This document shows positions 55,861 to 64,000 of a DNA stretch of 64,000 nucleotides, piece by piece. Positions within the stretch are counted from its first letter, which is position 1. Each line of letters opens with the position of its first letter. Below the pieces are notes generated by a model. That model did no database searches. It worked only from the letters and a program-made list of their open reading frames with translations, and had not been told where the DNA came from. A program made the position numbers and the translations under genes. Source of the stretch: Sphaerotilus natans (GTDB taxonomy: Bacteria > Pseudomonadota > Gammaproteobacteria > Burkholderiales > Burkholderiaceae_C); the NCBI RefSeq assembly GCF_900156335.1, contig NZ_FTMZ01000006.1:1-64000 (forward strand), in the 5' to 3' direction.

Positions 55861-56865
55861 ATGGTGTCTTTTCTGCCCCTGCCGATGACCGGACCGACCA
55901 TCCGCCAGCACTGCAGCCATGACCTCGACGAGCATGTCGAGCACCTCGACGGCTGGCAGCTGCGCTATGAGCAGCTCGGCCGCGGCCGCTTCGAAGGTCG
56001 CTTCGCCGAGGTGCGGCTGGACGGGCTGCAGGTCTTTCGCGAGCACACCAGCCAGCCGGTGCGCCAGCGCGGCACGCTGATGCCCGCCACGCTCGGCTTC
56101 GCCTTCGTCGATGCCGAGGGCGAGATCGGCAACGGCGCCTACGACGGCCACCCGATCGGCCCGGAGGAGCTGCTGTGCAGCCATGACGGCGACATCGACC
56201 TGCGCACGCCGCCGGACTGCTGCCTCACCGGTCTGGTCGTCGACGCGGCGGTGCTGCGCATGCAGCTCGGTGAGAGCGCCGACGCGGATCTGGCCGCGCT
56301 GCCCCCCGGACGCATCGCGCCGCTGCTGCCGGCCGGCTCGGCCGGACTGCGGCTGCGCCGCGGCGTGCATCGGGTGCTGGCGGCGGCGCTCGACGCGCAC
56401 GACGGGGCGGCGCGCCTGCCCGACGCGGCTGACCGCCTCGAGCTGCTCGAGGCGCTGGCCGAGGTGATCCGCTGCGGCCAGGTCCCTGACGAGACGCTGC
56501 GCGGGCGCGCTCGCCTGGAGCTGGTCAACCGCACCTGCGCGCTGATGCTCGAGCAGCTGCACACGGTCGATCCGCAGGACACGCCGACGCTGGAGACGCT
56601 GGCCCGGCAGATTGGTACCAGCGCCCGCACGCTGGGCTATGCCTTCCAGTCGGTGCTGGGCCTGTCACCGATGCAGTACCTGCGCACGCTGCGCTTCAAC
56701 CTGGTGCGCGGCGAGCTGCGCCGCAGCCGCCAGCGCGAGAGCATCTACGACATCGCCACCCGGCATGGCTTCTGGCACTTCGGCCATTTCTCGGTCGACT
56801 ACCGGCGCCAGTTCGGCGAGCGGCCCTCGGACACGCTGGCACGGGTCAGGCCGATGGACAACTGA
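55861..56865 (+). CDS. AraC-family transcriptional regulator
   Basis: A 334-residue regulator. The N-terminal 230 residues form a sensor part (WQLRYEQLGRGRFEGRFAEVRLDGLQVFREHTSQPVRQRG, LGFAFVDAEGEIGNGAYDGHPIGPEELL) of the kind found in EutR-like proteins. The C-terminal double helix-turn-helix reads TPTLETLARQIGTSARTLGYAFQSVLGLSPMQYLRTLRFNLVRGEL and SIYDIATRHGFWHFGHFSVDYRRQFGERPSDTL. Divergent from hmuR and convergent with the fifth Bug gene. Its targets are unknown; heme uptake and the amine dehydrogenase genes are the nearest candidates. Confidence 0.85.
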   Translation: MVSFLPLPMTGPTIRQHCSHDLDEHVEHLDGWQLRYEQLGRGRFEGRFAEVRLDGLQVFREHTSQPVRQRGTLMPATLGFAFVDAEGEIGNGAYDGHPIGPEELLCSHDGDIDLRTPPDCCLTGLVVDAAVLRMQLGESADADLAALPPGRIAPLLPAGSAGLRLRRGVHRVLAAALDAHDGAARLPDAADRLELLEALAEVIRCGQVPDETLRGRARLELVNRTCALMLEQLHTVDPQDTPTLETLARQIGTSARTLGYAFQSVLGLSPMQYLRTLRFNLVRGELRRSRQRESIYDIATRHGFWHFGHFSVDYRRQFGERPSDTLARVRPMDN

Positions 56866-56895: not shown

Positions 56896-57867
56896 TCACT
56901 CCGGCTCGATCCTGGCGGCGCGTACCACCCGGCCCCAGTGCTGGATCTCGTCGGCCAGCAGCTTCGCCTGCTCGGCAGGCTGGCTGGCACGGGCCTTGAC
57001 ACCCAGCTCGCGCAGCCGCTCGACCACCGCCGGCTGCGCCAGCGCCTGGGTGGCAGCAGCACGGAGGCGCTCGATCGCGGCCGCGGGCGTGCCTGCCGGC
57101 GCGGCCAGCGCGTTCCAGCTGTCGACGCTGTAGTCGGCCACGCCCTGCTCGATGACGGTGGGCACCTCGGGCAGGCTGGCGAAGCGCTGCGTGCCGGTCA
57201 CCGCCAGCAGCCGGATCGTGCCGGCCTTGAGCTGCGGCAGCAGCGGGCTGAGGATCTCGAAGGCGACATCGATCTCGCCGGTGCGCAGCGCGTTGATCAC
57301 CGCCGGCGAGCCCTTGTAGGGAACCACCAGCGCGTCGATGCCGGTGCGGGCCTTGAACAGCTCGGCGCTCAGGTGCTGGGTGCTGCCCACCGCGATCGTG
57401 CCGATGGTCAGCCGGCCCGGCTGGCTGCGGGCGTGGGCGAGCAGCTCCTTCAGCGTGCCCTGGCGCGAGTTCGCCGGCACCGCCAGCCCCAGCTCGAAGA
57501 AACCCAGCGTGGTGATCGGCAGCAGCTGACGCTGCACGTCGAAGGGCAGCTTGCGCACCAGATGCACGCTCACCGCGGTGGCGTTGCTCATCAGGAGCAG
57601 CGTGTGGCCGTCGGGCGGCGCGCCCAGCACCGCCTGGGTGGCGACGATGCCGCCCGCGCCGGGGCGGTTGTCGATCACCACCGGCTGGCCCAGCAGCGGC
57701 GCCATCGCCTGGCCGACGGTGCGCGCGGTGACATCGGCCACGCCGCCTGGGGCGAAGGGCAGGATCAGCGTGACCGGGCGCGAGGGAAAGTCGCTGGCGC
57801 GGGCGGCGGGGAGCCACGGCGCGAGCGCGCCGGCGGCCAGGATCTGGCGGCGGGAAAGGCGGTTCAA
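56896..57867 (-). CDS. Bug/TctC-family periplasmic solute-binding protein (5 of 5)
   Basis: A 323-residue Bug receptor. The best start is TTG at 57867 (NRLSRRQILAAGALAPWLPAARAS), which has GGAG 7 nt upstream and yields a twin-arginine signal; no ATG is well placed, and a GTG further upstream is the alternative. Mature motifs: RPVTLILPFAPGGVADVTARTVGQAM, VVIDNRPGAGGIVATQAVLGA, TIGTIAVGSTQHLSAELFKA and VVPYKGSPAVINALRTGEI. It is divergent from the amine dehydrogenase operon. Its ligand is unknown. Confidence 0.88.
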   Translation of the reverse strand: MNRLSRRQILAAGALAPWLPAARASDFPSRPVTLILPFAPGGVADVTARTVGQAMAPLLGQPVVIDNRPGAGGIVATQAVLGAPPDGHTLLLMSNATAVSVHLVRKLPFDVQRQLLPITTLGFFELGLAVPANSRQGTLKELLAHARSQPGRLTIGTIAVGSTQHLSAELFKARTGIDALVVPYKGSPAVINALRTGEIDVAFEILSPLLPQLKAGTIRLLAVTGTQRFASLPEVPTVIEQGVADYSVDSWNALAAPAGTPAAAIERLRAAATQALAQPAVVERLRELGVKARASQPAEQAKLLADEIQHWGRVVRAARIEPE

Positions 57868-58011
57868 GGTCTGTCTCCGAAGAAGGAATGTTCTGTGCGG
57901 ATCGATTGTCACCAGCCGCAGCCGGGCAGGCCAGCCGCGCCGCGCACTGTCAGCTATCGCATTCCGGCATGACCGGGCCGATCGCTCTGCGGGATCTCCC
58001 CGGGGCCTGTC

Positions 58012-58031
58012 CATCGCGAATCCTCGCGATG
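58012..58031. promoter_or_regulatory. 20-bp palindromic operator upstream of aauB
   Basis: CATCGCGA-ATCC-TCGCGATG, perfect 8-bp arms with a 4-nt spacer, 109 bp before the aauB ATG. Fifteen bases of it (58017-58031) recur exactly upstream of the aldehyde dehydrogenase gene at 62821-62835, where the left arm is degenerate. The LuxR-type regulator encoded in between is the natural candidate to bind both. Confidence 0.65.
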
Positions 58032-58139
58032 TCGCAGGCCAGCACCCGCGCCGGCGCTTGCAAGAACGGGATAACGCGCCGGGCAGGCGCTCCCTAGCAT
58101 CGACCTCGTCGGGCTGCAAGCCTGCCCAGGAGATGATTC

Positions 58140-59321
58140 ATGACCCTCGTCAGACCCCTCGCAAGAAGTCCGGTCGCCGCGCGCGCCGGCCAGGTGGCAG
58201 CCGCCGCGCTGCTGGCCTGCACCGGCCTGGCCCAGGCCGAGCTGCCGGTCGAGCAGCTGCGCACCGAGCCGCTCGCGCCGGCCACGGCCGAGCGCATCTA
58301 CCTGACCGATCCGGTCATGCCGCACCTGGTCGACGGCCGGGTGCTGGTGATCGACGGCCAGAAGATGAAGAAGCTGGCGGTGATCGGCTCGGGCTTCTCG
58401 GGCCTGACCGCGCTCTCGCCCGACCGCCAGTGGCTGTATGTGGCCACGACCTACCACAGCCGGCTGCAGCGCGGCGAGCGCACCGACGTGGTCGAGGTCT
58501 ACCGCACCGATGACCTGAGCTTCTCGCACGAGATCGTCATCCCGCCGAAGCATGTGCAGGGCTTGATGATCAGGGCGCTGATGCAGCCCAGCGCCGACGG
58601 CCGCTTCCTGCTGATCCAGAACGCCACGCCCGCGACCTCGGTCACGGTGCTGGACACCCAGACGCGCCAGGTGACGGCGGAGATCGCCAATCCGGGCTGC
58701 TGGGGCGCCATTCCATGGCCGACGGCCAGCCTGCGCTTCTCCAGCATCTGCGGCGACGGCACGGTGCAGACCTTCGACCTGGACGCAGCCGGCGCCAGCG
58801 CGGGGTCGAGCCGCAGCGTGCGCTTCTTCGACCCGGACAAGGACCCGGTCTTCATGCACTACAGCCTGAGCGGCAGCACCATGACGATGCTGAGCTTCCA
58901 CGGCACGGTGCACCGCATCACGCTCGACGGAAACGCGCCCAGCTTCGCGCCGACCTGGAACTTCGTGTCCGACGCCGACCGCAAGCAGGGCTGGCGGCCG
59001 GGCGGCTTCCAGCTCTTCGAGGTGGTCGGCGAGCGGCTGGTCGTGGGCATGCACGCCAAGGGCTTCGAGGGCACGCACAAGAACCCGGCCGAGCAGCTCT
59101 GGACGGTCGATCTGGCCGCGAAGCAGCGCGTGGCGCGCACGCCGGGCTTCGGCACGCTGTCGATGACCCGCACCCGCGAGGCCGCGCCGAAGCTGGTGCT
59201 GCTCAGCGGCCTGGACAACACGCTGCGGGTGCTCGATCCGGCCCGTCCGGCCTCGATGCGCAAGCCGCTGAAGGCCTCCGAGCCGATGGGCGAGACGCCG
59301 GTCTACCTGGAGACGCACTGA
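58140..59321 (+). CDS. aauB: Aromatic amine (aralkylamine) dehydrogenase heavy chain
   Basis: A 393-residue beta-propeller subunit of the tryptophan tryptophylquinone enzyme that oxidatively deaminates amines such as tryptamine, tyramine and phenethylamine in the periplasm. A signal peptide (AARAGQVAAAALLACTGLAQA) is followed by propeller repeats such as VLVIDGQKMKKLAVIGSGFSGLTALSPDRQWLYVATTYHSR, SADGRFLLIQNATPATSVTVLD and PGGFQLFEVVGERLVVGMHAKGFEG. AGGAGA at 58128-58133 precedes the ATG. Gene order B-E-D-A matches the Alcaligenes faecalis aau cluster. Aromatic rather than methylamine specificity is judged from the light-chain numbering and the context. Confidence 0.9.
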   Translation: MTLVRPLARSPVAARAGQVAAAALLACTGLAQAELPVEQLRTEPLAPATAERIYLTDPVMPHLVDGRVLVIDGQKMKKLAVIGSGFSGLTALSPDRQWLYVATTYHSRLQRGERTDVVEVYRTDDLSFSHEIVIPPKHVQGLMIRALMQPSADGRFLLIQNATPATSVTVLDTQTRQVTAEIANPGCWGAIPWPTASLRFSSICGDGTVQTFDLDAAGASAGSSRSVRFFDPDKDPVFMHYSLSGSTMTMLSFHGTVHRITLDGNAPSFAPTWNFVSDADRKQGWRPGGFQLFEVVGERLVVGMHAKGFEGTHKNPAEQLWTVDLAAKQRVARTPGFGTLSMTRTREAAPKLVLLSGLDNTLRVLDPARPASMRKPLKASEPMGETPVYLETH

Positions 59322-59322
59322 G

Positions 59323-59880
59323 ATGGGCGCAGACCTTCTTCCTGCGCTCGACCCGGTGATCGGCCACACCGCGGCGGCCAGCGTCGGCGCGCTGCTGCTG
59401 ACCGGCGCGCTGGCCAAGCTGCGTGACGTGGCGCTGTTTCGCGCCACGCTCGACAACTACCGGCTGCTGCCCGATGCGGCGCTGGGCGCCGCCACCATCG
59501 CGCTGCCGCTGGCCGAGCTGGCCGCCGGCGCGCTGATCCTGCCCGCCGCCAGCCGCGCGGCCGGCGCGCTGCTGGCCCTGGCGCTGCTCGCGCTGGTGAC
59601 CGGCGCGGTGGCCTGGCGGCTGACGCGCGGCGGCGGCCCGATCGACTGCGGCTGCGGCGGCAGCACCGAGGTGCCGCTCTCCGGCGGCCTGATCGCCCGC
59701 AACGCGGTGCTGATGCTGCTGACGCTGCTGGCCGCGCTGCCGGCGATGGATCGCCCCACCGTCTGGCTCGATGCGCTGGCCACCGTGCTGGCGACGCTGT
59801 TCTTCCTGGGCCTGTACCAGACCGCCAACCTCTGGCTGGCCCACCACCCCAAGCTGCTCGAACTGAGGAACGCCCCATGA
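59323..59880 (+). CDS. mauE: MauE-type integral membrane protein for amine dehydrogenase maturation
   Basis: A 185-residue membrane protein with four or five hydrophobic helices (TAAASVGALLLTGALAKL, AATIALPLAELAAGALILPA, LLALALLALVTGAVAWRL, LATLFFLGLYQTANLWLA). A DCGCGG motif between helices has two cysteines, as expected for a DsbB/VKOR-like partner in light-chain disulfide formation. It starts 1 nt after aauB and overlaps mauD as ATGA. Known mau and aau systems need it for a stable light chain. Confidence 0.9.
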   Translation: MGADLLPALDPVIGHTAAASVGALLLTGALAKLRDVALFRATLDNYRLLPDAALGAATIALPLAELAAGALILPAASRAAGALLALALLALVTGAVAWRLTRGGGPIDCGCGGSTEVPLSGGLIARNAVLMLLTLLAALPAMDRPTVWLDALATVLATLFFLGLYQTANLWLAHHPKLLELRNAP

Positions 59881-60482
59881 CCGACGCCCTCGTCATTTCC
59901 AACATCGTCCTGTGGGTAGCCGTGCTGGCCCTGCTGGTGGCGGTGATCGCCCTGTCGCGCCAGATCGGCATCCTGTACGAGCGCATCGCGCCGATGGGCG
60001 CGCTGATGATGGACACCGGCCCGAAGGTCGGCGAGGCCGCGCCGGTCTTCGACCTGCCCAGCCTGGGCGGCGGCCACGTCGCGGTCGGCGCGCCGGCCGC
60101 GCGGGCCACGCTGCTGTTCTTCCTGTCGCCGACCTGCCCGGTGTGCAAGAAGCTGCTGCCGGTGCTGCAGTCCATCCACGCCGCCGAGTCGCGCACGCTG
60201 GATCTCGTCTTCGCCTCCGACGGCGAGATGCCCGAGCATGCCGAGTTCCGCCAGCGCGCCGGCCTGGGCGCCTTCCCCTATGTGCTCTCGGCCGAGCTGG
60301 GCATGAGCTGGCGCATCAGCAAGCTGCCCTACGCGGTGCTGATCGACGAGCGCGGCATCGTGCGCGGCAAGGGCCTGGTCAATTCCCGCGAACAGATCGA
60401 GAGCCTGCTGACCGCCCGTGACCTGGGCCTGGTCTCGGTGCAGGACTACATGGACCGCAAGATCGCCAAGGAGATCGCATGA
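59877..60482 (+). CDS. mauD: MauD-type thioredoxin-fold protein for amine dehydrogenase maturation
   Basis: A 201-residue membrane-anchored thioredoxin-like protein. One N-terminal helix (ISNIVLWVAVLALLVAVIALSRQIGILYERIAPMG) is followed by the AhpC/TSA-like domain with LFFLSPTCPVCKKLLPVLQ holding the CPVC redox pair, and KLPYAVLIDERGIVRGKGL. It is thought to shuffle the many disulfides of the light chain. ATGA overlaps bind it to mauE and aauA, so dosage of the four proteins is coupled. Confidence 0.92.
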   Translation: MTDALVISNIVLWVAVLALLVAVIALSRQIGILYERIAPMGALMMDTGPKVGEAAPVFDLPSLGGGHVAVGAPAARATLLFFLSPTCPVCKKLLPVLQSIHAAESRTLDLVFASDGEMPEHAEFRQRAGLGAFPYVLSAELGMSWRISKLPYAVLIDERGIVRGKGLVNSREQIESLLTARDLGLVSVQDYMDRKIAKEIA

Positions 60483-61024
60483 CATCGCTCTGGAACTGGC
60501 TGGACCGCGCCGCCGAGCGCCGCGCCCGCCGCCTCGCTCAGACCACCTCGCGCCGCAGCGTGCTCGTCGGCGTCGGCCGGGCGCTGGTCGCCTCGGCCTT
60601 CACGCTGCCGGTGCTGCCCTTCGATCGCACCGGCCAGGCGCTGGCCGCCGGCGCCCACGGCGCTGGCGCCAAGAAGAAGGGCCCGCCCACCGACACCGAC
60701 TGCGACTACTGGCGCTACTGCTCGGTCGACGGCTTCCTGTGCTCGTGCTGCGGCGGCTCGGCCACCAGCTGCCCGCCCGGCAGCACCGCCTCCAAGGTGG
60801 CCTGGGTCGGCACCTGCCTGAACCCGGCCGACGGCAAGAACTACCTCGTCAGCTACACCGACTGCTGCGGCCGCACGCCCTGCGGCTCGTGCTTCTGCAA
60901 CACCAACCACGGCGACCGCCCCGGCTACCGCCTGGGCGTGCACAACGACGTGAACTGGTGCATGGCCAACGACAGCTCGGTCTATCACTGCACCGTCTCC
61001 GTCATCGTCGGGGTGGCGGACTGA
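60479..61024 (+). CDS. aauA: Aromatic amine dehydrogenase light chain (TTQ subunit)
   Basis: A 181-residue precursor of the catalytic subunit. It has a long Tat leader (about 1-60) with TTSRRSVLVGVGRAL. The cofactor tryptophylquinone is made from two Trp: Trp109 (SKVAWVGTC) and Trp160 (HNDVNWCMAN) fall exactly at the numbers reported for the Alcaligenes faecalis aromatic enzyme, as do catalytic Asp128 (SYTDCC) and Thr172. The mature part has 14 Cys, most presumably in disulfides. It overlaps mauD and the next gene by 4 and 1 nt. No mauG-like di-heme gene, used to finish TTQ in methylamine dehydrogenase, is present. Confidence 0.95.
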   Translation: MTSLWNWLDRAAERRARRLAQTTSRRSVLVGVGRALVASAFTLPVLPFDRTGQALAAGAHGAGAKKKGPPTDTDCDYWRYCSVDGFLCSCCGGSATSCPPGSTASKVAWVGTCLNPADGKNYLVSYTDCCGRTPCGSCFCNTNHGDRPGYRLGVHNDVNWCMANDSSVYHCTVSVIVGVAD

Positions 61025-61512
61025 TGCGGGCGCGCGCTTTCCCTTGCGGATCCGGGCGCGCGCTGGCGGGCGCCGTGCTGGCCGCCGTGCTGGCCGGGCC
61101 CGTCGCGGCACAGACCGCCACGCCGGCCGCACGCGGCGCCGAGATCTTCGCCAGCGTCTGCTTCGCCTGCCACGGCGCGCAGGGCCAGGGCACCGCCGGC
61201 ATCGCGCCGGCGCTGGCCGGGCCGCTCTCGCCGGCGCTGGCGCGCCCCGAAGGGCGTGGCTACGTGCTGCGGGTGCTGCTGCACGGCCTGAGCGGGCGCA
61301 TCGTCTCGCAGGGCCAGACCTTCGTCGGTGCGATGCCCTCGCAGGCGGCGCTCTCCGATGCCGATCTGGTCGCCCTCGGCACCCATCTGACCGCGCTCAA
61401 CGGCCAGACGGGCGCGCCCTTCGATGCCGCCGAGGTCGCCACGGCCCGGGCCGAATCGCCCGCCCCCTCGCACAAGGCGCTGCGCGAGCTGCGCGCCCGG
61501 GTGATGCCATGA
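61024..61512 (+). CDS. Monoheme cytochrome c of the aau operon (first)
   Basis: A 162-residue secreted c-type cytochrome with signal ALAGAVLAAVLAGPVAAQT and one heme motif CFACH near residue 47, followed by GAQGQGTAGIAPALAGPLSPAL. A Met in VGAMPSQAALSDADLVALGTHL is the probable sixth ligand. It may take electrons from the dehydrogenase (directly or after a blue copper protein) or form a two-subunit cytochrome with its neighbour. Its start overlaps the aauA stop (TGATG). Confidence 0.88.
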   Translation: MRARAFPCGSGRALAGAVLAAVLAGPVAAQTATPAARGAEIFASVCFACHGAQGQGTAGIAPALAGPLSPALARPEGRGYVLRVLLHGLSGRIVSQGQTFVGAMPSQAALSDADLVALGTHLTALNGQTGAPFDAAEVATARAESPAPSHKALRELRARVMP

Positions 61513-61940
61513 AGCGGATGCTGCTGTGCTGCATGGCGCTGGTGCTGGCGGCCTCGGCCCGCGCCGGCTCGCCCGAGGCGCAGACGCGCCTGCAGTACCT
61601 GCAGCACTGCATGGGCTGCCATCTGGAGGATGGCAGCGGCGCGCCCGAGCGCGGCGTACCCTCGATGCGCGGCCAGCTCGGGCGCTTCCTGTCGGTGCCC
61701 GGCGGGCGCGAGTTCATCGTCCAGGTGCCGGGCGTGATGAACTCCGGCCTGTCGGACGCCGACATCGCCCGGCTGATGAACTGGCTGCTGCCGCGCCTCT
61801 CGGCCGAGACGCTGCCCGCCGGCACCGCGCCCTACACCGAGGCGGAGATCGCCCGGCTGCGCACCACCCGGCCGCTGGACGTGCCGGCGGCGCGCCAGGC
61901 GCTGGTCGATCTGCTGCAAACCCGGGCTGCGGCGCGCTGA
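61509..61940 (+). CDS. Monoheme cytochrome c of the aau operon (second)
   Basis: A 143-residue secreted cytochrome c. The signal MKRMLLCCMALVLAASARAG is followed by TRLQYLQHCMGCHLEDGSGAPERGVPSM with heme motif CMGCH. A Met in VPGVMNSGLSDADIARLMNWLL is a plausible axial ligand. Its ATG overlaps the previous stop as ATGA. Small cytochromes in this position were reported in the Alcaligenes aau cluster; their place in electron transfer is not settled. Confidence 0.87.
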   Translation: MKRMLLCCMALVLAASARAGSPEAQTRLQYLQHCMGCHLEDGSGAPERGVPSMRGQLGRFLSVPGGREFIVQVPGVMNSGLSDADIARLMNWLLPRLSAETLPAGTAPYTEAEIARLRTTRPLDVPAARQALVDLLQTRAAAR

Positions 61941-61962
61941 CACCCGCCCCTACACTGCGGGC

Positions 61963-62820
61963 ATGATGTGCGCCGCCCCTGCCCCCGACGCTGCCGCCGA
62001 CCTCGGAGCGGAGCTGCTGCGCCTGCAGCGGCTCTGGCGCGAGCGGCTGCTGGGCGGGGCGGGCGCGACCCGCTGGCGGCCCGGCCGCGAGATCGCCGCC
62101 GAGCTGCTGCTGCACCTCGACGACGAAGCCGCCTGCTGGCATCTGGCCGCCGACTGGCTGCGCGATCTGCTCGATGCCGACCGGGTCGATGCCGGTCCGG
62201 GCGGCTTCATCGATGCCGCGGGCAGCGCGCGCGGCTATCTGCCCCAGGCCGAGGTCCAGCGTGAGCCAGGACTGCTGCCGACGGTGATGGGGCTGCGCTT
62301 CGATGCCGCCGATCCCGGCCTGCAGGCGGTCTGGCGCTGCCCGGGCAGCCTGCCCATGCGCGAAGTCGCCCAGGAACGCACGATGAGCGCAGCGCTGCGC
62401 GAGCGCATGCTGGCGCAGGGCACACGCGCCAAGCTCGCGCTGCCGCTGCGCGCGGGCACGCAGGCGATAGGCCTGCTGTGCGCCGACTGGCGCCAGCCCG
62501 ATCCGCGCTGGAGCGACAGCACCTGCCAGCAGCTCGGCGACTGGGCCGCGCAGGCGCTGGGCCCGCTGCTGGCCGAGGCGCGGCGCCTGGCCCGCCATCC
62601 CGTCGATGCGGAGCATCCGGCGCTGCCGGTGCTGACGCCCGCCGAGCTGCGGGTGGCGCGGCTGGTCGCACGCGGGCTGAGCTACAAGGAAATCGCCCGC
62701 CAGCTTGACCGCTCGGTGGCGACGATCGACCACCAGACCCGCCGGCTGCGCGAGAAGTTCGGCGTGCATTCCAACGCGCGGCTGATGCCGCTGCTGGATC
62801 GGGCCGGGTTTTCCCGCTGA
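61963..62820 (+). CDS. LuxR-family regulator, likely of the amine dehydrogenase and aldehyde dehydrogenase genes
   Basis: A 285-residue regulator. The N-terminal part is a GAF-like sensor (AACWHLAADWLRDLLDADRVDAGPGGFIDAAG, RAKLALPLRAGTQAIGLLCADWRQPD). The C-terminal helix-turn-helix is LTPAELRVARLVARGLSYKEIARQLDRSVATIDHQTRRLREKFGVHS. A second ATG follows at 61966. It lies 22 nt after the cytochrome genes on the same strand. A palindrome-derived site begins at its stop codon and is shared with the aauB promoter, so it probably regulates both. The signal is unknown; an amine or its aldehyde would make sense. Confidence 0.85.
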   Translation: MMCAAPAPDAAADLGAELLRLQRLWRERLLGGAGATRWRPGREIAAELLLHLDDEAACWHLAADWLRDLLDADRVDAGPGGFIDAAGSARGYLPQAEVQREPGLLPTVMGLRFDAADPGLQAVWRCPGSLPMREVAQERTMSAALRERMLAQGTRAKLALPLRAGTQAIGLLCADWRQPDPRWSDSTCQQLGDWAAQALGPLLAEARRLARHPVDAEHPALPVLTPAELRVARLVARGLSYKEIARQLDRSVATIDHQTRRLREKFGVHSNARLMPLLDRAGFSR

Positions 62821-62835
62821 CGAATCCTCGCGATG
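62816..62835. promoter_or_regulatory. Second copy of the aauB operator half, upstream of the aldehyde dehydrogenase gene
   Basis: CGAATCCTCGCGATG at 62821-62835 is identical to 58017-58031. The right arm TCGCGATG and the ATCC spacer are intact; the left arm (62816-62823) keeps only 4 of 8 bases. It begins at the luxR stop codon and lies 67 bp before the aldehyde dehydrogenase ATG. Confidence 0.6.
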
Positions 62836-62901
62836 GTCGCGCGGGGTGTGCGCTCCGACACTGCCGGCGATCCCGAACGACATCGCCGCAGGAGACTCCC
62901 G

Positions 62902-64000
62902 ATGAGCACGCCCCCCCTGACCCGCCCGCCCCGCCAGATCGCCCCGACCCTGGCCAACCTCGTCGCCGGCCAGCCGGTCCACAGCCCCGAGACCTTCGCC
63001 TCCATCTCGCCCTCGACCGGGGAGGTGCTGGCGCAGGTGCCCGTTAGCACGCCCGAGCAGATCGATGCGGCGGTGGCGGCAGCCCGCGCGGCGCAGCCGG
63101 CCTGGGCGGCGCTGCCGGACGCCGAGCGGGCCGCGGTGCTGAACCGCGTCGCCGACCTGCTGAAGGAACATGCGGCGCTGCTGGCCGACTGGATCGCCCG
63201 CGAGCAGGGCAAGCCGCTGGGCGGCGTCGGCCCCGACCAGGTGCCGGGCGCGCGCTTCGAGGTCTGGGCCTGCGAGGGCTGGACCCGCGCCACCGCCGCG
63301 CTCTCGCTCGGCACCGAGGTGGTGTTCGAGGACGAGACGCGCCGCGACGAGCTGCAGCGCCTGCCCCACGGCGTCATCGCCGCGATCGCGCCGTGGAACT
63401 GGCCGCTGATGATCGCCATCTGGCAGATCGTGCCGGCGCTGCGCACCGGCAACACCGTCGTCATCAAGCCCTCGGAATACACGCCGGCGGGCACGCTGGA
63501 GATGGTGCGGCTGATCTCGGCGGCGCTGCCGCCGGGCGTGCTCAACACCGTCAGCGGCGCCGGCCCCGTCGGCGCGCGCCTGGCCGCGCATCCGCAGGTC
63601 GACAAGGTGCTGTTCACCGGCTCGGGCCCGACCGGCGAGCGCATCGCCGCCCAGGCCGCCACGCGGCTGATGCCCGTCACGCTGGAGCTGGGCGGCAACG
63701 ACGCCGCCATCGTGCTGCCCGACGCCGACCCGGACACGATCGCGCCCGGCCTGTTCTGGGGCGCCTTCCTGAACATGGGCCAGACCTGCGCCTGCATCAA
63801 GCGGCTCTACGTGCCCGATTCCCTGCATGACGCGCTCGTCGAGCGGCTGCGCGCGCTGGCCGAGGCGCTGCCGATGGGCGACCCGCTGGCCGAGGGCACC
63901 GCGATGGGCCCGGTGCAGAACCGCATGCAGCTCGACAAGATCGGCCGGCTGCTGCGGCTGGCGCGCGAGGCCGGCGCCACGGTGGTCTGCGGCGGCGAGC
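62902..64000 (+). CDS. NAD(P)-dependent aldehyde dehydrogenase (C-terminus beyond window)
   Basis: Open from the ATG at 62902 (GGAG upstream) to the window edge, 366 codons, so the C-terminal fifth is missing. Motifs: cofactor-binding IAPWNWPLMIAIWQIVPALRTGNTVVIKPSEYTP, VLFTGSGPTGERIAAQ, general base VTLELGGNDAAIVLPDAD and catalytic Cys in NMGQTCACIKRLYVP. It belongs to the broad class that oxidises aliphatic and arylacetaldehydes. Behind the amine dehydrogenase genes, and sharing an operator with them, it would be the enzyme that oxidises the aldehyde products, for example indole-3-acetaldehyde to indole-3-acetate; that substrate is inferred. Confidence 0.9.
   Translation, partial: MSTPPLTRPPRQIAPTLANLVAGQPVHSPETFASISPSTGEVLAQVPVSTPEQIDAAVAAARAAQPAWAALPDAERAAVLNRVADLLKEHAALLADWIAREQGKPLGGVGPDQVPGARFEVWACEGWTRATAALSLGTEVVFEDETRRDELQRLPHGVIAAIAPWNWPLMIAIWQIVPALRTGNTVVIKPSEYTPAGTLEMVRLISAALPPGVLNTVSGAGPVGARLAAHPQVDKVLFTGSGPTGERIAAQAATRLMPVTLELGGNDAAIVLPDADPDTIAPGLFWGAFLNMGQTCACIKRLYVPDSLHDALVERLRALAEALPMGDPLAEGTAMGPVQNRMQLDKIGRLLRLAREAGATVVCGGE

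Follow-up and report, generated by a model that had tools for sequence, protein, structure and literature searches.

Two Candidate GAF-LuxR Operators at an Aromatic Amine Dehydrogenase Operon and an Aldehyde Dehydrogenase Gene in Sphaerotilus natans

Introduction

Are an aromatic amine dehydrogenase (aau) operon and a nearby aldehyde dehydrogenase (ALDH) gene of the sheath-forming bacterium Sphaerotilus natans joined under one regulator by a shared operator? The question is raised by a stretch of 64,000 nucleotides (contig NZ_FTMZ01000006.1, positions 1 to 64,000; hereafter, the window), in which the aau operon (58140-61942) is followed by a luxR gene and then by the ALDH gene. A perfect 8+4+8 palindrome, CATCGCGA-ATCC-TCGCGATG (Site 1), lies before aauB, and a 15-mer within it, CGAATCCTCGCGATG (58017-58031), recurs at 62821-62835 as part of CGAATCCTCGCGATGG (Site 2). 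This second copy begins at the base next to the luxR TGA, and the ALDH ATG lies 67 positions past 62835. An earlier note had described both features, which are confirmed here, and had read them as a shared operator of the LuxR protein, with strong control at aauB and weaker control at the dehydrogenase.

From sequence comparison, we consider it likely that this LuxR protein, which has a GAF-fold sensor domain (GAF-LuxR), has operators at both the palindrome and the 15-mer, and that it would activate the ALDH gene, add a later, upstream input at aauB behind an AraC-type promoter, and respond to an aldehyde-type signal.

Results

The repeat by itself proves little; its weight comes from its place and its conservation. 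The earlier note had called the repeat unlikely by chance, which is overstated: on the plus strand of the window, 15-mers repeated no more than 5 kb apart number 63 when each overlapping one is counted (they form 27 separate repeats), whereas 20 simulated sequences average 6.6. Perfect 8+4+8 palindromes number three, where simulation averages 5.5. Because such repeats are common in the window and such palindromes are no rarer in simulation, the argument from chance fails from the window alone, and chance is rejected by comparison with relatives. A dispersed repeat, named beforehand in the note as what would refute its reading, is excluded: in the whole genome (4,630,083 bases), CGAATCCTCGCGATG has these two exact copies only, with no places at one mismatch and 10 at two. 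The pattern GCGAATSYTCGCGATGG, which had been relaxed at one base so as to admit both window sites, matches only those two sites genome-wide at one mismatch.

An alignment search with luxR returned 20 loci, including those of Leptothrix sp. C29, Sphaerotilus sulfidivorans D-501, Curvibacter, Acidovorax soli, Variovorax boronicumulans, Ralstonia soli, and Ramlibacter monticola. Twelve sites, 11 before ALDH genes and one before a GMC oxidoreductase-ALDH operon (Acidovorax), share a layout: GGGTTTnCCC or a variant, 4-5 bases, and then CGAATsTTCGCgATGG or near, with the dyad GCGAA-NN-TTCGC. In all 12, a -10-like hexamer begins 30 or 31 bp from the dyad centre. This spacing rule was noticed on the 12 sites and then applied to 9 further ones, of which 7 agree (19/21 in total; L139+ and L143 failed), and no 2-bp offset window rose above 5/21 in 5000 shuffles. 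The 21 sites include L139 in both directions, omit near-duplicates (L101, L107, L111) and repeat records (L138, L144), and exclude both Sphaerotilus/Leptothrix aauB sites, which are without the spacing. Since the hexamer sits 30-31 bp from the centre, the dyad centre falls near -43, the position of a class II activator; judged by the predicted -10, an operator centre near -42 to -43 is found at Site 2 (31 bp, about -43) and 18 other sites, and not at Site 1. By this comparison, the ALDH site is the canonical predicted target.

A score matrix built from 10 sites of other genera, none from the window's genus, ranks Site 1 (19.6) and Site 2 (19.1) first and second in the 19 kb locus, and gives 8 matches of at least 19 and 70 of at least 15 on both strands of 10 Mb of simulated sequence. 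A site of at least 15 near luxR or ahead of a neighboring gene, mostly ALDH, is present in 23 of 26 GAF-LuxR loci, of which 10 trained the matrix and 3 more are near-duplicates of those; L139 is counted without an assigned gene behind its site, and the operon behind the L113 site is decayed.

The site also travels with luxR, which is found at E 1e-25 or better in 14 of 399 genomes of the family. The strict motif is present in 12 of these 14 vs. 4 of 66 genomes without luxR (Fisher p 2e-9); in 6 of the 12 the match lies at luxR or its ALDH, and these counted alone give 6/14 vs. 0/66 (p 1e-5). At the luxR-bearing loci, 16 of 16 have the ALDH site (near-duplicates included; Acidovorax via its operon). 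None of five aau loci without luxR has it (best score 13.7 in L075, and below 2.5 in L076, L077, L079, and L097), nor does a site precede aauB in the 11 clusters without luxR at the locus (best 8.0). Because of this co-occurrence, the linked LuxR protein appears to be the likeliest binder of both sites, as the earlier note had proposed, and the shared operator type that it saw linking the two genes gains support from a matrix built outside the genus.

The LuxR protein has a GerE domain (PF00196, E 7.5e-09) and, at its N-terminus, a partial match to GAF (PF01590), with no receiver-domain match. A structure search with its model (mean pLDDT 91.4) finds phytochrome GAF domains as well as the quorum receptors TraR, RhlR, and SdiA, and the DNA-recognition stretch has many invariant residues across 19 homologues. 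In six relatives (L100, L104, L106, L108, L109, and L141; near-duplicates not counted) luxR and ALDH are transcribed divergently and the site lies in the gap that separates them; the luxR stop position given for L106 falls past an earlier stop. In the window and in Leptothrix, GGGTTTTCCCGC TGA encodes the luxR end, GFSR and the stop, and in L117 (an alphaproteobacterial metagenome-assembled genome) and L142 (window's family) the palindrome itself encodes HRESSR and the stop codon. That the operator of the next gene was built into the coding end of luxR more than once, and that transcription and translation of luxR could clear it as a negative feedback on target activation, is an improbable extension of these observations.

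At aauB, the search of relatives that the earlier note had suggested gave a divided result: Leptothrix and Ramlibacter have a LuxR site there and the other clusters scored do not. Because only three of 20 aau clusters, the window's included, have one, the site at aauB was probably acquired later, as far as its distribution tells. Site 1 is retained in Leptothrix sp. C29 with one change. In S. sulfidivorans its arms are kept and its spacer altered, although the operon and luxR are broken by deletions; in this strain (D-501; L078/L113) the AraC gene is also broken by internal deletions, and the promoter region and TctC are nearly intact. Between the centre of Site 1 and the putative aauB -10 are 73 bp (74 in Leptothrix, 73 in S. 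sulfidivorans), which puts that centre at about -85 and 42 bp, or four turns, beyond the ALDH spacing.

Between Site 1 and the aauB -10 is an AraC/XylS-type box, in one clear copy by eye. Under the rule TGC[CA]-N6-GG[AC]TA with one mismatch allowed, such a box occurs in 26 of 32 aauB upstream regions, a count that stands without a shuffle control, and a -10-like hexamer follows at 21-22 bp in all 26. Two of the clusters that lack a LuxR site before aauB, L070 and L071, are without this box too; their upstream regions look coding, and the aauB start may be misplaced. The fetched Ramlibacter stretch has no AraC-type box and no araC match, and in R. monticola the LuxR dyad faces aauB with TAGACT at 30 bp. 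A similar box, TGCCGGAATGCGATA, faces the divergent TctC gene, with no clear -10 at 21-22 bp by eye.

In the ALDH sites of relatives, the element GGGTTTTCCC or some variant of it precedes CGA by 14-15 bp. It is missing at the sites of L142, L139, L102, and L117 and at the aauB site of L115, so it is probably a separate element rather than a part of the LuxR site. Genome-wide, GGGTTTNCCC has 23 copies vs. 3 for a reversed control, and is perhaps a separate, widespread regulatory element; stretches like it, found by eye, precede certain aauB promoters of the AraC type in relatives that lack luxR.

The coordinates of all features are given in Table 1. By closer sequence match, the window enzyme is assigned as an aromatic amine dehydrogenase, not a methylamine dehydrogenase: the large subunit has E 1.9e-71 to the former (2h3x_A) vs. 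1.5e-28 to the best methylamine dehydrogenase chain, the gap is narrower for the small subunit (6.7e-53 vs. 6.8e-47), and both subunits fall below the methylamine dehydrogenase cut-offs. Matches to the aauA query occur in 26 of 399 genomes of the order, four of them weak (E 3.7e-10 or worse), and in 28 of 399 of the family. A generic palindrome, ATCGCGA-N4-TCGCGAT, tried as an order-wide marker of aau genomes, is present in 13 of 399 genomes of the order.

Table 1. Genes, predicted promoter elements, and candidate operators of the locus.
Feature	Position	Strand	Remarks
AraC-family regulator gene	55861..56865	+	likely binder of the 58059 box
TctC-type (Bug) solute-binding protein	56896..57870	-	divergent from aauB; start codon inferred
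Box TGCCGGAATGCGATA, facing TctC	57955..57969	-	stretch largely conserved in two relatives
Site 1, proposed LuxR operator	58012..58031	.	perfect 8+4+8 palindrome; matrix score 19.6
AraC/XylS-type box TGCAAGAACGGGATA of aauB promoter	58059..58073	+	TGCA-N6-GGATA
Putative -10 of aauB, TAGCAT	58095..58100	+	21 bp past box
aauB, aromatic amine dehydrogenase large subunit	58140..59321	+	best PDB chain 2h3x_A
MauE-type maturation protein	59323..59880	+	
MauD-type maturation protein	59877..60482	+	above curated cut-off
aauA, aromatic amine dehydrogenase small (quinone) subunit	60479..61024	+	
Cytochrome c	61024..61512	+	
Second, cytochrome-like protein	61511..61942	+	no Pfam match; CxxCH-type motif by eye; again in 3 relatives (L067, L072, L078)
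Putative -10 directly 5' of luxR, TACACT	61951..61956	+	read from the sequence; Leptothrix sp. C29 has it too
luxR, GAF-fold sensor domain and GerE LuxR-type DNA-binding domain	61963..62820	+	285 aa; ends with TGA 62818-62820
GGGTTTTCCC element	62806..62815	+	codes part of luxR C-terminus (GFSR and stop)
Site 2, proposed LuxR operator of ALDH	62821..62836	+	matrix score 19.1
Putative -10 of ALDH gene, GACACT	62857..62862	+	
Aldehyde dehydrogenase (ALDH)	62902..64000	+	491 aa; ATG at 62902; extends past window end

Past the ALDH gene (L039:10365-18256) are genes for IclR, a metallo-beta-lactamase-fold protein, an aromatic-ring hydroxylase, TctC, a glyoxalase/dioxygenase-type protein, a fumarylacetoacetase-type hydrolase, and LysR, a run that is probably an aromatic-acid degradation cluster. 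Elsewhere, luxR adjoins other genes. In Ralstonia and Ramlibacter a luxR also adjoins a PaaZ-like fusion protein gene, and in L112 (5839-7923) and L116 (5771-7867) luxR is directly 3' of a PaaZ-like aldehyde dehydrogenase/MaoC fusion gene, which points to phenylacetate metabolism. In L110 and L118 a permease-luxR unit (an amino acid permease was identified in L118) is preceded by an imperfect LuxR-like dyad with a 3-base spacer and a GGATA box, both found by eye.

Discussion

In the mechanism that we propose, both sites would be bound by the GAF-LuxR encoded at 61963-62820. At ALDH, the apparent ancestral target by comparison among relatives, the operator centre near -43 would let a LuxR-type dimer contact RNA polymerase, most likely for activation. 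A site of the same type was probably acquired later at aauB, near -85, behind an AraC/XylS-type core promoter that is probably served by the neighboring AraC protein; at this promoter LuxR would most likely supply an additional input from upstream, to which the divergent TctC gene may perhaps respond as well. Because the predicted targets across genera (amine dehydrogenase, GMC oxidoreductase, and aldehyde dehydrogenase) mostly make or remove aldehydes, the ligand of the GAF domain is probably an aromatic aldehyde or the corresponding acid, and the product of the first step would then induce its own removal. An acyl-CoA dehydrogenase (Variovorax) and a LysR gene (L117) have no obvious fit to this theme.

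Several points weigh against this mechanism. No match to the relatives' strict motif occurs in the genome to which the window belongs, and in Sphaerotilus/Leptothrix the left half of Site 2 is damaged by one inserted base, which is the A of the TGA that ends luxR. At Site 1 a -10 is missing from the 30-31 bp position, and six of nine luxR-bearing aau clusters have no site before aauB. Three luxR loci (L105, L114, and L116) are without an assigned site, L114 having one unassigned match of 16.8. A 17-mer matrix, with which 28 of the listed GCGAATSYTCGCGATGG-type places were scored, puts C22:539, inside an open reading frame, at 20.6 vs. 20.2 and 19.7 for the window sites. LuxR binding and its effect on expression are predicted, as are all -10s in the analysis.

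The earlier ranking of the two sites, strong at aauB and weak at the dehydrogenase, is not supported: among relatives it is the site at the dehydrogenase that is conserved, a fixed distance away from a predicted -10, and the aauB site is missing from most luxR-bearing clusters and lies here further upstream, behind an AraC/XylS-type promoter. Conservation lends no support to weak control at the dehydrogenase; in favor of the earlier ranking, the damaged half-site makes a lower affinity possible at the Sphaerotilus/Leptothrix dehydrogenase site.

Site 1 could instead act mainly on the TctC (Bug) gene that runs the other way, or on transcription both ways, with the AraC protein alone running aauB. 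We regard this as unlikely, though not negligibly so: Site 1 is flanked by two AraC-type boxes that both point outward, its aauB side lacks a -10 at the usual distance, and aauB promoters in most clusters have an AraC-type box, most without a LuxR site, but the TctC side, as read from the sequence, likewise lacks a -10 at 30-31 bp, and the Ramlibacter monticola site faces aauB at the expected spacing. Repression through the sites is rather unlikely. A dyad near -43 could block polymerase too, but activator-dependent promoters usually have a poor -10, no obvious -35, and a fixed operator spacing, and the fixed 30-31 bp to a poor -10, with no obvious -35 (judged by look, unscored), is of this kind.

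It is very unlikely that the sites are bound, in place of LuxR, by the AraC protein or by some unlinked regulator: the commoner element GGGTTTNCCC beside the ALDH sites means that more than one factor may act there, but the dyad occurs at luxR loci whose retrieved sequence gives no araC match (e.g., L115, L108, and L112), and it is absent before ALDH in the five aau loci that lack luxR, araC being present in three of the five. A functionless chance repeat is scarcely credible: the window is GC-rich, and repeated 15-mers as well as palindromes are common there, but the conservation and spacing across genera contradict it.

If LuxR does act through both sites, an uncharacterized GAF-LuxR family gains a concrete candidate operator and targets, together with a testable ligand class, the aromatic aldehydes. 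The locus would further be a likely case of rewiring, in which the regulator of ALDH took over aauB in two lineages by two layouts, replacing the AraC box in Ramlibacter and being added behind it in Sphaerotilus/Leptothrix.

Comparison With Known Systems

No paper joining aromatic amine dehydrogenase with LuxR or with Sphaerotilus was found, subscription papers being outside the search. Among the literature matches listed, the dyad sequences have no match, with only GGGTTTTCCCG matched, and titles and abstract openings hold nothing on this operator; a term search of PMC13300288, on Sphaerotilus, finds none of methylamine, mau, amine, and LuxR.

Like other aau operons, that of the window has the subunit genes together with MauE/MauD-type maturation genes, and it differs in the LuxR operator before aauB, present in the three clusters named above. 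LuxR-type class II activators have a lux box near -42.5. The system described here resembles them in its dyad of about 20 bp near -43, its GerE domain, and a ligand-sensing domain of GAF-like fold, but the lux box sequence differs from the GCGAA-NN-TTCGC operator, and the predicted targets here are catabolic.

The XylS consensus box is TGCAN6GGNTA (PMC4225500). Like the XylS-dependent promoter Pm, the window aauB promoter has a TGCA-N6-GGNTA box, positioned at its -35 region or a little upstream; Pm has two direct repeats (PMC4225500), whereas the aauB promoter has its single clear copy.

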